Below are positions 5,347 through 8,588 of a stretch of 64,000 bases of DNA, piece after piece (within the stretch, counting starts at the first letter, position 1; each line of letters opens with the position of its first letter). The notes under the pieces were generated by a model. That model saw nothing but the letters and a program-made list of their open reading frames with translations, had not been told where the DNA came from and did not search any database. Source of the stretch: Actinophytocola algeriensis. Lineage in GTDB: Bacteria; Actinomycetota; Actinomycetes; Mycobacteriales; Pseudonocardiaceae. The stretch spans positions 124,001-188,000 of the forward strand of contig NZ_JACHJQ010000009.1 in NCBI RefSeq assembly GCF_014203735.1, given 5' to 3'. Made by a program: the position numbers and the translations under genes.

Positions 5347-6210
5347 GTGACTGAGGCTGACGTGAGTGCCCTCCTCGGCCCCGCCGACATCCGGCGGCTG
5401 GCCGCGGAGCTCGACGTCCGCCCCACGAAGAAGCTCGGCCAGAACTTCGTCCACGACCCCAACACCGTGCGCCGCATCGTGGCCGCCGCCGGGGTGGACG
5501 ACACCGACACCGTCCTCGAGGTCGGCCCGGGCCTCGGGTCGCTCACCCTGGCCCTCCTCCCCGCCGTCCGCGAGGTCGTCGCCGTCGAGATCGACGACGT
5601 GCTCGCCGGCCGCCTCCCGAGGACCGTCGCCGAACGCGCGCCCGCGCTCGCCGACCGGCTCACCGTCGTCAACGCCGACGCGCTCCGGGCCACCGGGGAC
5701 CAGCTCCACGAGCCGACCGCGCTCGTGGCGAACCTGCCCTACAACGTCTCCGTACCCGTCGTGCTGCACCTGCTCGCCGAGCTGCCGACGATGCGGCGCG
5801 CGCTGGTCATGGTCCAGGCCGAGGTCGCCGACCGCATGGCCGCCGGGCCTGGCTCCAAGGTCTACGGCATCCCGAGCGTCAAGATCGCCTGGTACGCCGA
5901 GGCGCGCCGGGTCGCGACCGTGCCGCGCAGTGTCTTCTGGCCCGTCCCGAACGTCGACTCCGCACTCGTCCTCCTCACCAGGCGCGAGCAGCAGCAGGGC
6001 GACCGGAACGCGGTGTTCACCCTGGTGGACGCGGCTTTCGCCCAGCGTCGCAAGACCCTCCGCGCGGCCCTCGCGGGCTGGGCAGGCACGGCCGACCGAG
6101 CCGAGGACATCCTCACCCGAGCGGGTGTCGATCCGGCCGCCCGCGGAGAAACGATCACCGTCGGTGACTACGCCGCGATCGCCCGAATGGCCGGTAAGGG
6201 ACAGCCGTAA
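5347..6210 (+). CDS. rsmA: 16S rRNA (adenine(1518)-N6/adenine(1519)-N6)-dimethyltransferase
   Basis: KsgA/RsmA dimethylates two adjacent adenines in the 3' hairpin of 16S rRNA late in 30S assembly, using S-adenosylmethionine. Visible motifs: [18 protein letters not shown] near the N-terminus, the SAM-binding motif [12 protein letters not shown] near residue 60, and the catalytic [11 protein letters not shown] motif near residue 130. The C-terminal KTLRAAL helix region is present. At 287 residues it has normal family length. The GTG at 5347 fits both the family N-terminus and a leaderless promoter. It needs SAM, as does the riboswitch immediately downstream. Confidence 0.96.
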
Positions 6211-6299
6211 GGGATGTGATTCTCCGGATATCGGGACTCAATTCGGGGGCCCGCGGGTTGCAATCACATGGGTTCTTCGGGTCTACTACTTGCGGAGAT

Positions 6300-6385
6300 T
6301 CCATCCCGAGCGGCCGAGAGACCTGGCTCTGAGACGCCGCAGCAACCACCCGTCGCGGGCAGGTGCTACCGCCAGGAGCGATGGA
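6300..6385 (+). promoter_or_regulatory. SAM riboswitch (SAM-I / S-box type)
   Basis: The S-box core is clear: GAGCGGCCGAGAGACCTGGC (from 6308), then CTCTGAGACGCCGCAGCAACC up to 6347, then GGTGC at 6362-6366. The closing helix P1 pairs TCCATC (6300-6305) with GATGGA (6380-6385). The 3' strand of P1 overlaps the Shine-Dalgarno GGAGGAG (6383-6389) of the downstream leader peptide, so SAM binding would be expected to mask that site (inference). Such riboswitches normally shut off methionine synthesis or uptake genes when SAM is plentiful. It lies in the 371-base gap between rsmA and the MetN-like gene. Confidence 0.85.
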
Positions 6386-6397
6386 GGAGTGAGAACG

Positions 6398-6481
6398 GTG
6401 CAGATCCTCACCACCAGGCGAGTCATCGACCAGTGCAGGCGCACGGTCACGGGCTGTCGTCGCATGTGCTCATCGAACTGA
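6398..6481 (+). CDS. Short Cys/Arg-rich leader peptide (27 aa)
   Basis: A 27-codon ORF starting at GTG 6398 behind GGAGGAG (spacing 8). Its core is LTTRRVIDQCRRTVTGCRR, and it ends MCSSN. It resembles the widespread putative leader peptides of actinomycetes, with the pattern LT.RR..D.CR....CR, that precede sulfur-metabolism and sulfur-transport genes. A GTG at 6389 would give 30 residues but sits too close to the ribosome binding site. Three cysteine codons and seven arginine codons suggest a ribosome-mediated attenuator, about 100 bases before the MetN-like start. It follows the SAM aptamer directly, a two-layer control. Function inferred from pattern and position. Confidence 0.6.
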   Translation: MQILTTRRVIDQCRRTVTGCRRMCSSN

Positions 6482-6581
6482 AGCTGATTCGAGCCATCCG
6501 ACTTCCCTGAGCCTCATCGAACGAGGCCATTCACCACACGCGCGAGGTCCTGACCCGCGCGCGCCTGGACTGGAGCACATC

Positions 6582-7577
6582 GTGATCACCGTTGAGAACC
6601 TGACCAAGTCGTTCCGAAGTACAACCGGCGCCGTTGTCGCGCTGAATGACGTCAGCCTGGACGTGCAAGCCGGTGTGATCGCCGGCGTCGTGGGCCCCGC
6701 AAGGGCCGGCAAGTCGACCCTGGCCCGTGTGCTCGCCCTCCGCGAGCGGCCCGACAGCGGCACGTTCCGCCTCGACGGTCTCAACACCGCCGCGCTCGAC
6801 CAGCGCAGCCTCCGCGCCGCCCGCGCCCGCATCGGCGTCGTGCCTGCCGGCGAGTCGCTCCTCGCGCAGCGCACCGCGGCGGGCAACATCGCGCTCCCGC
6901 TCGAGCAGGCCGGTGTGGACGGTCCCCGCCGCCGCGAGAAGGTCGGCAAGCTGCTCGACCTCATCGGCCTCACCAACCAGGCCGCCACCTACCCCGACCA
7001 GCTCTCCGCGGGCCAGCGGCAGCGGGTCGCGATCGCGCGTGCGCTCGTCGGCGAGCCGACCGTCGTGCTGGCCGACGACCCGACCGGTGGTCTGGACGCG
7101 ACCGGTTCCGCCGGTGTGCTGGCGGTGCTCGACCGCGCCCGTGCCGAGCTGGGCGCGACCGTGCTGGTCGCCACCCCGGACGCCAGCGTGGTGCGCAAGA
7201 TCGCCGACGACGTCGCGTTCCTCGAGGACGGGCGCATCGTCGAGCACGGCAGGCTGCTGGACCTCGTGCAGGACCCGGGAAGCCGGGTCGCGCAGTCGGT
7301 GCTGCCCGCGATCGAGACGAGCGCGCCGGGGGTCGCCGACATCGTGCTGGTGGGTTTCGCGTCGATCGGCGGGCTGCTGCCGGAGGCCGCGAGCCGGTTC
7401 GGCGCCGAGATCGCGGTGTCGGGCGGCGGTGTGACCAAGATCGGTGAGACGCCGGTGGCGCGGTTCCGGATCGGCATCACCGGTGACCAGGTCGACGTGG
7501 TGCTGGGCTGGCTGTCCGTGCGGGGCGCGCACGTGCAGCGTGCGCTCGGCCGCCCGCTGGCGGTGGCGGCCGCGTAA
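6582..7577 (+). CDS. MetN-like ABC ATPase with C-terminal NIL domain, catalytic residues substituted
   Basis: An ABC-type ATPase domain (residues 1-240) followed by a ligand-binding NIL/ACT-like domain (about 250-325), the architecture of MetN, the methionine importer ATPase whose NIL domain senses methionine. Walker A (GPARAGKST, 38-46) and the signature LSAGQRQR (from about 141) are intact. The Q-loop glutamine position aligns with Ala89, the Walker B catalytic glutamate is Asp166 (LADDPTGG) and the H-loop histidine is Pro199 (VATPDASV). No permease (metI) or binding protein (metQ) follows; ispE does. It is expressed behind a SAM riboswitch and leader peptide. It may be a MetN paralogue acting as a sensor, or may pair with distant MetI/MetQ with weak ATPase activity. 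Confidence 0.85.
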   Translation: MITVENLTKSFRSTTGAVVALNDVSLDVQAGVIAGVVGPARAGKSTLARVLALRERPDSGTFRLDGLNTAALDQRSLRAARARIGVVPAGESLLAQRTAAGNIALPLEQAGVDGPRRREKVGKLLDLIGLTNQAATYPDQLSAGQRQRVAIARALVGEPTVVLADDPTGGLDATGSAGVLAVLDRARAELGATVLVATPDASVVRKIADDVAFLEDGRIVEHGRLLDLVQDPGSRVAQSVLPAIETSAPGVADIVLVGFASIGGLLPEAASRFGAEIAVSGGGVTKIGETPVARFRIGITGDQVDVVLGWLSVRGAHVQRALGRPLAVAAA

Positions 7578-7622: not shown

Positions 7623-8588
7623 GTGCTTGCGGTTGTGCCCCGCCCGGTGACCGTCCGGGTGCCGTCGAAGGTGAATCTGCACCTCGCGGTGGGTGATCTG
7701 CGCAGGGACGGTTTCCACGAGCTGACGACCGTCTTCCAGTCGCTGTCGCTCACCGACGAGGTGACCGTCGCCGTCGCCGACGATCCCGGTGTCGAGGTCC
7801 AGGGCGAGGGCGCGTCGGCCGTGCCGACCAACGGCGCGAACCTGGCGTGGCGCGCGGTGGAGGAGCTGGCCCGCCACGTCGGCCGCGAGGTCGGTGAGCT
7901 GAAGGTCCGCGTGCTGATCCGCAAGGGCATCCCGGTGTCCGGCGGCATGGCGGGTGGCAGCGCCGACGCGGCGGCCACCCTGGTGGGCCTCGCGAACCTG
8001 TGGAAACTGGAGATCGGCCGCGACGAGCTGGCCGGCGTCGCCGCGAACCTCGGCAGCGACGTCCCGTTCATGCTCCACGGTGGCACCGCACTGGGCACCG
8101 GCCGCGGCGAGTCGATCGTGCCGGTCCTGTCACGGCACACCTACCACTGGGTGCTGGCCTTCGCCCGCGGCGGCCTGGCCACCCCCAAGGTCTACGGCGA
8201 GCTGGACCGCCTGCGCGCCGAGGGCGACCCGCCGCGGGTGGGCGGGGTCGAGCCGGTGCTGGAGGCGCTGGCGTCGGGTGACCCGCGTCAGCTGGCCCTG
8301 TTGCTGGGCAACGACTTGCAGGCGGCGGCGGTCTCGCTGCGTCCGGGGCTGCGGCGCACCCTGCGTGCGGGGGTGGCGGCCGGCGCGCTGGCGGGCACGG
8401 TCTCGGGTTCCGGCCCGACGTGTGCCTTCCTGTGCGCGGACGCCGATGACGCCTTGCGGGTGGCGGCGGAACTGTCGGGCGCGGGCGTGTGCCGGACCGT
8501 CCGCGTGGTCCACGGCCCGGTCCCGGGCGCGCGGGTGATCGGCGGCGACGACGAACCGAGGTCCGCGCCACCGCAGGTGCACGCCTGA
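7623..8588 (+). CDS. ispE: 4-diphosphocytidyl-2-C-methyl-D-erythritol kinase
   Basis: A GHMP-family kinase that phosphorylates CDP-methylerythritol in the non-mevalonate (MEP) isoprenoid pathway, supplying precursors for undecaprenyl phosphate and menaquinone. Motifs: [24 protein letters not shown] at the N-terminus (substrate and catalytic region), the ATP-binding glycine loop [15 protein letters not shown] near residue 105, and the C-terminal [14 protein letters not shown]. The 321-residue length is typical. The GTG at 7623 fits a leaderless promoter. In mycobacteria ispE directly follows rsmA; here the MetN-like unit is inserted between them. Confidence 0.95.

Follow-up and report, generated by a model that had tools for sequence, protein, structure and literature searches.

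A MetN-derived ABC-NIL protein behind a SAM-I riboswitch in Actinophytocola algeriensis: an orphaned importer subunit with a possible switch function

A gene for a MetN-derived ABC-NIL protein was analysed in the window, a stretch of 64,000 nucleotides from Actinophytocola algeriensis. The gene (6582..7577, + strand, GTG start, 331 aa) is, judged from the comparison of sequences, an orthologue of the MetN of the metN-metI-metQ operon found beside ksgA in other Pseudonocardiaceae and not a paralogue, and its present job probably differs from transport. The favoured explanation, to which a probability of about 0.56 was given, is that the orphan MetN is a repurposed ABC-NIL switch that would bind ATP, hydrolyse it poorly and be made at low SAM. 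The basis of this explanation comprises orthology, the missing transport partners, a loss of catalytic residues which tracks the loss of the partners, selection on the protein and the kept riboswitch.

The domain profile search of the window gene gave PF00005 (ABC_tran) with 95.5 bits and PF09383 with 25.4 bits, just above its cut-off of 24, the latter placing the NIL domain at residues 254-319 (7341..7538, +). Both profiles being above cut-off, the MetN architecture of ABC ATPase plus NIL domain claimed in the original prediction was confirmed. The protein is similar to E. coli MetN of MetNIQ (3dhw, 3tui, 6cvl) in having an ABC ATPase followed by a C-terminal NIL/C2 domain, and its near-full-length profile match to 3dhw_C and 6cvl_C spans 1-324. 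The score against TIGR02314 was 194 bits for an equivalog cut-off of 499.7; the use of this cut-off as proof of a non-MetN identity was dropped, as two intact orthologues also fell below it (278.7 and 280.1 bits).

The Walker A motif GPARAGKST (residues 38-46; 6693..6719, +) is kept in the window protein. Aligned by profile to E. coli MetN (6cvl_C, with Gln at the Walker B Glu position), the window protein has Ala89, Asp166 and Pro199 at the Q-loop Gln, the catalytic Glu (E. coli E166) and the H-loop His, and the same three substitutions were obtained by pairwise alignment with an intact orthologue (63% identity, gap-free up to residue 244). The changed sites are position 89 of the Q-loop (Gln to Ala; 6846..6848, +), position 166 of Walker B, where the catalytic Glu is replaced by Asp next to the kept Asp165 (7074..7079, +), and position 199 of the H-loop (His to Pro; 7176..7178, +). 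All three replacements had been named beforehand from the letters of the DNA, and the alignments to E. coli MetN and to the intact orthologue found each of them correct. The accompanying claim that Walker A and the signature are kept held for Walker A only, since residue scoring in the alignment gave the signature (residues 141-145; 7002..7016, +) as LSAGQ and not LSGGQ. That the protein is an ordinary functional MetN whose catalytic residues are merely displaced was ruled out for practical purposes by the profile and pairwise alignments; the alignment to E. coli MetN is likewise gap-free across the ATPase domain. The protein is a MetN by fold and origin, and its membership as a functioning MetN fails on the catalytic residues and the partners.

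The window protein thus combines the Walker B Glu to Asp change with signature and H-loop changes around a kept Walker A, a pattern similar to the degenerate sites of heterodimeric ABC exporters (ABCB2/B3, TM287/288). In the excerpts of PMC7756269, the Walker B Glu to Asp change is described as typical of degenerate exporter sites with slow hydrolysis only, and Walker B changes as often accompanying H-loop changes. The heterodimeric exporters, however, are membrane transporters having one degenerate and one intact site, whereas here neither site of the presumed homodimer is intact, and no permease was detected.

The genomic context of the gene was analysed by synteny. It lies between ksgA (rRNA adenine dimethylase family; 5347..6210, +; PF00398), the conserved upstream neighbour, and an ispE-like GHMP kinase gene downstream (7623..8588, +; PF00288 and PF08544), and in the operon species the place after metN, where the window has the ispE-like gene, is taken by metI and metQ. 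The window's assembly (9.73 Mb, 23 contigs, 98.27% complete) gave no MetQ at E<=1e-10, no MetI at E<=1e-12 (19 of 49 candidates scored) and no further NIL protein above the cut-off genome-wide, two weak matches having E values of 0.13 and 0.21. The result is in accordance with the original prediction, which had stated that metI and metQ are absent and that ispE follows; its proposed check for metNIQ elsewhere in the genome returned no MetI, MetQ or second NIL protein at these thresholds. Origin as a paralogue of a resident MetN was rejected, the genome having no second NIL match above the cut-off.

The closest relatives of the window protein were found in Actinophytocola, a genus of Pseudonocardiaceae, with 75-79% identity. 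Among the 150 genomes of the family sample, 131 gave a match at E<=1e-50; G004 matched far more weakly (2.4e-51) than the others, all of which reached 3.3e-82 or lower, and its match is probably a different MetN. The comparison set comprised 110 orthologous sequences, drawn from 109 genomes among the 131 with a match, with ksgA present in the fetched stretch for 61 of the 62 non-operon rows and 41 of the 48 operon rows. The operon class, defined by metI next after metN and a MetQ match within 4 kb (n=48), includes sister genera with the intact metNIQ operon and kept Gln, Glu, His and LSGGQ in 48/48 sequences; no orthologue adjacent to metI and metQ was found with the same substitutions as the window protein. 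The 62 non-operon sequences had lost all three residues in 46 cases, with one residue kept in 11, two in 3 and all in 2. The last pair, from G022 and G060, looks like recent metIQ loss, because a third genome of the same genus (G089) still has the operon. One of the 62 (L216) comes from G010, where it is an additional copy close to the end of a contig, and the other 61 are all downstream of ksgA and span 25 genera. The window gene is a left-behind orthologue rather than a paralogue because the relatives show the orthologous operon state and the same ksgA neighbourhood. The earlier suggestion of a sensor or regulatory paralogue in place of a transporter motor therefore stands in part: the retained core and NIL domain, the lost loops and purifying selection favour the non-transport role, and the word paralogue had to be given up for an orthologue of the operon gene.

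The genomes without ksgA-type MetI numbered 93, that is 150 minus 57 with a match at E<=1e-69 (adjacency checked in 48 of the 57); a strong metN match was present in 73 of these 93 and missing in 20. The protein in a record titled Rhodococcus rhodnii NRRL B-16535 (L061) is identical to the one in G093, a genome grouping with Kibdelosporangium-like ones, and the assembly behind that record is probably mislabelled or contaminated.

The downstream region of the orphans was also compared. In 45/62 non-operon loci the flank that was fetched holds an ispE match no more than about 0.4 kb away, and 9 other loci which were fetched further have ispE 1-2.4 kb on. In 7 of these 9 regions (L270-L276) orphan metN and ispE are separated by an opposite-strand MFS-like gene, identified by eye from the starts of ORFs, and a TetR-like gene, also named by eye, is present in 3 of the 7. 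A conserved new neighbour as partner where ispE is not next was considered and rejected, the MFS-like gene (7/9) and the TetR-like gene (3/9) giving no plausible conserved partner. The pre-ispE gap of five orphans (L141, L138, L201, L187 and L191), each searched against one operon relative, gave short blastn matches only and no convincing remnant of metI or metQ. Some family members have second MetN-like loci away from ksgA (L225-L239). Of the 15 that were fetched, 14 carry Q, E, H and LSGGQ; metI and metQ matches lie nearby in 13 of these 14 intact ones, and SAM-I was found at 0 of the 7 scanned. The MetN-like gene L237 (G052), which is far from ksgA, has E, D and D at the catalytic positions, the signature LRPEQ and no metI or metQ match within 7 kb; it is perhaps another dead NIL-ABC protein.

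The number of losses was estimated from phylogenetic trees, all of which are quick ML trees. The rooted metN tree (motif columns masked, 8 outgroup MetN from other families of the order, L216 left out) revealed four changes, namely one clade of 56 orphans, which may be partly long-branch joining, and separate losses in g46/g6, g23 and g20. The unrooted metN tree gave 5 changes with 110 rows and the ksgA tree 7 changes with 97 rows. From these trees we infer at least four independent metIQ losses. The intact state was taken as ancestral because all 15 outgroup MetN loci are intact, with Q, E, H and LSGGQ in 15/15 and metI and metQ matches in the same stretch. SAM-I was found at 0 of the 13 outgroup loci scanned; one outgroup metN locus from another family of the order has SAM-IV instead (L255, 258-373).

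Selection was estimated within genera as dN/dS (Nei-Gojobori), excluding pairs more than 97% identical or with undefined dS. Orphan metN gave values of 0.11-0.43 (12 genera, 72 pairs) and ksgA in the orphan pairs, where available, 0.11-0.26, while operon metN (10 genera, 48 pairs) gave 0.07-0.14, which does not exceed the values of its ksgA. The orphan was clearly above ksgA in g45 (0.43 vs 0.24) and g36 (0.23 vs 0.11), and elsewhere it was mostly near ksgA. Orphan metN is under purifying selection which is partly relaxed compared to operon metN and far from neutral, g45 being the loosest, and it is probably still a working gene. All orphans of the main set (n=59) are full length with 331-354 aa; a draft metagenome copy (L062) ends early at 282 aa owing to a frameshift or a sequencing error.

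The residue counts and site variability were obtained on the 59 orphans remaining without L216, L138 and L141. G38 and G43 of Walker A are present in 59/59 and K44 in 55/59; ATP binding may not be universal among orphans, because Thr replaces K44 in the other 4. Walker B D165, signature G144 and signature Q145 are each kept in 58/59. At position 166, 46 of the 59 orphans have D and the other 13 have E (D 47 and E 15 in the 62 non-operon sequences); no other residue occurs there. Among the 139 sites which are invariant in operon MetN, positions 89 and 199 are the most variable in the orphans. The mean between-genus identity, calculated with one sequence per genus and with the same three sequences left out, was 0.81 for ABC and 0.73 for NIL in operon MetN, and 0.58 for ABC and 0.66 for NIL in the orphans. 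The NIL identity exceeded the ABC identity in 225/276 orphan genus pairs vs 17/171 operon pairs. From operon to orphan the identity of the Q-loop fell from 0.94 to 0.38 and that of the D-loop from 0.91 to 0.34. These profiles indicate that constraint in the orphans is moved from the ABC motor towards the NIL domain.

The leader upstream of metN was analysed for regulatory elements. A SAM-I (S-box) riboswitch aptamer was found at 6298..6387 (+) with the full model of RF00162 at 58.9 bits (gathering 44.4), which agrees with the SAM riboswitch proposed earlier ahead of the gene. SAM-I was detected at 29/29 loci belonging to named genomes, of which two loci have intact residues, at 20/20 and 19/20 further non-operon loci, L216 being the miss, and at 20/20 operon loci scanned. 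The aptamer is followed by a leader peptide uORF, MQILTTRRVIDQCRRTVTGCRRMCSSN (6398..6481, +), having a GTG start (alternative GTG at 6389) and a conserved TGT Cys codon. The peptide motif LTxRRVVDxxRRTxxxC was present between aptamer and metN in 99/110 loci (55/62 non-operon, 44/48 operon), and the controls gave it in 0/110 reverse strands and 0/2200 base shuffles. The 3' strand of P1, GAUGGAGG (6380-6387, +), appears from its position to be the Shine-Dalgarno-like site of the leader peptide, and in 97 of the 99 leaders the first in-frame start codon lies 8-18 nt downstream of the first base of GATGGAG. As GATGGAG coincides in the window with the 3' strand of P1, binding of SAM should mask the ribosome-binding site of the leader peptide.

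The codon and leader-tail statistics were calculated for the leaders having the motif. The uORF showed entropies of 0.52, 0.31 and 1.38 at codon positions 1, 2 and 3, varying like a translated frame. The last Cys codon is TGT in 99/99 leaders, where TGT makes up 11/208 Cys codons in the metN coding sequences. The leader tail at 6482..6581 (+) is C-rich and G-poor (C 0.39, G 0.26) and is a possible Rho-loading region; C exceeds G in the tails of 99/99 leaders with the uORF vs 44/110 metN coding sequences. Folding of the window's leader tail gave a z of -1.78, which is not convincing. From these features one may reasonably guess at a Rho-dependent attenuator that reads cysteine. According to the excerpts of PMC1262725, Mycobacterium cys leaders are predicted without obvious terminators, and according to those of PMC8079986 a different leader peptide (metL) precedes metNIQ in S. 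lividans. The present leader shares with these a short uORF that contains Cys, stands ahead of sulphur genes and has no clear intrinsic terminator; compared with what the excerpts describe, it differs in that its uORF comes after a SAM-I aptamer, the P1 strand of which carries the ribosome-binding site of the uORF, and in that conservation extends to the sequence of the peptide, LTxRRVVDxxRRT...C. The one further SAM-I match in the genome (L240; G000 C1:900050-900180, -) lies ahead of a gene read by eye as threonine synthase (thrC), and the leader-peptide motif gave no match there.

The repurposed switch may have arisen from an ancestor with a riboswitch-controlled metNIQ operon next to ksgA, in which metI and metQ were lost and metN survived. 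The coupling and hydrolysis residues (Q-loop Gln, H-loop His, D-loop and signature Ser/Gly) would have drifted afterwards and the catalytic Glu would mostly have become Asp, the nucleotide-binding core, the LxxGQ contact and the NIL domain being held by purifying selection. The product would be a soluble ABC-NIL homodimer which binds ATP with little or no hydrolysis, and a ligand of the NIL domain would toggle it between an ATP-closed and a NIL-bridged open form, with expression at low SAM through the riboswitch and the leader peptide. We infer this order of events together with ATP binding, poor hydrolysis, ligand switching and the direction of control. A sensor or regulator is the best guess for the role, because the nucleotide-binding core and NIL domain are kept, the hydrolysis and coupling loops are lost and purifying selection acts on the protein; ligand binding and regulatory output are putative.

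The E. coli protein gives a model for such toggling in the excerpts of PMC10710835, where two methionines at the C2-domain interface prop the ATPase domains of MetN open. The excerpts of PMC12357092 describe E166Q of E. coli MetN as hydrolysis-deficient and N295A as causing a 28-fold rise in the Ki for L-Met. The two E. coli Asn residues expected to include N295 align to E276/I277 of the window protein, with numbering uncertain by one and weak similarity in this region. Position 277 is Leu in 47/48 operon MetN and hydrophobic in the orphans, and Asn is conserved in neither class. Methionine as the NIL ligand is not supported by the sequence, because the E. coli Asn pair is unmatched at E276/I277. 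The window protein differs from E. coli MetN in this methionine region, in the changed Q, E, H, D-loop and signature, and in a genome without detected MetI and MetQ. A wider proposal, which is tentative and rather doubtful, is that at least four MetN conversions produced a family-wide class of ABC-NIL switches acting as non-hydrolysing, ATP-locked sensors of sulphur amino acids; the SAM aptamer would then gate the ribosome-binding site of a peptide reading cysteine at the rare TGT, exposing or hiding a Rho site.

The repurposed switch was weighed against explanations in which the protein has no new function. The gene could be a decaying relic, with metN slowly dying after metIQ loss and the residue changes reflecting relaxed selection. 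Such decay would account for Q-loop and H-loop positions that are nearly free to vary, for an orphan dN/dS which exceeds that of operon metN and reaches 0.43 in g45, for the 20/93 genomes that have neither ksgA-type MetI nor a strong metN match and for the early stop of L062. It is nevertheless unlikely in view of the 59 full-length main-set orphans, the spread of 61 ksgA-adjacent orphans across 25 genera, a dN/dS mostly near that of ksgA, a NIL domain better kept than ABC in the orphans and the retention of riboswitch and leader peptide. The riboswitch and leader peptide are strongly conserved, and the protein could be a passenger of selection for the leader RNA or for transcription into ispE, a match to which was found in the flank of 45/62 non-operon loci; the constraint at the amino-acid level inside the coding sequence (dN/dS) and the opposite-strand MFS-like gene that splits metN from ispE in 7/9 fetched regions make this very improbable.

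The protein could also still be a transport subunit, either serving another permease in trans or pairing with an intact ATPase in a heterodimer of which it is the degenerate half. Heterodimeric ABC exporters with one degenerate site do exist (excerpts of PMC7756269), and the genomes of 22/61 ksgA-adjacent orphans have MetQ elsewhere. The window genome, however, is without MetI and MetQ at the thresholds used, and the Q-loop, which contacts the permease, has an identity of 0.38 across orphan genera vs 0.94 across operon genera. The second MetN-like loci, intact in 14/15 and accompanied by metI and metQ matches in 13 of these, indicate that this other system has its own ATPase. Continued transport was accordingly considered improbable, less so than the passenger explanation and more so than the relic.

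The ABC fold works without a membrane permease in ABCF, ABCE, UvrA and SufC, as in orphan MetN. To our knowledge these proteins keep their catalytic residues, whereas orphan MetN has lost them and descends from an importer subunit. An orphan or catalytically dead MetN, or the LTxRRVVDxxRRT leader peptide, was found in none of the matches listed from open-licence PMC papers. The leader is a possible serial SAM/cysteine gate. The genes in these actinomycetes which are likely to be given the annotation 'methionine ABC transporter ATPase' are often not transporters, which is a warning for annotation. The family offers a natural experiment in which an importer ATPase was removed from its transporter, the loss being inferred several times and with intermediates, and it shows which parts of an ABC ATPase persist once hydrolysis and coupling no longer matter.
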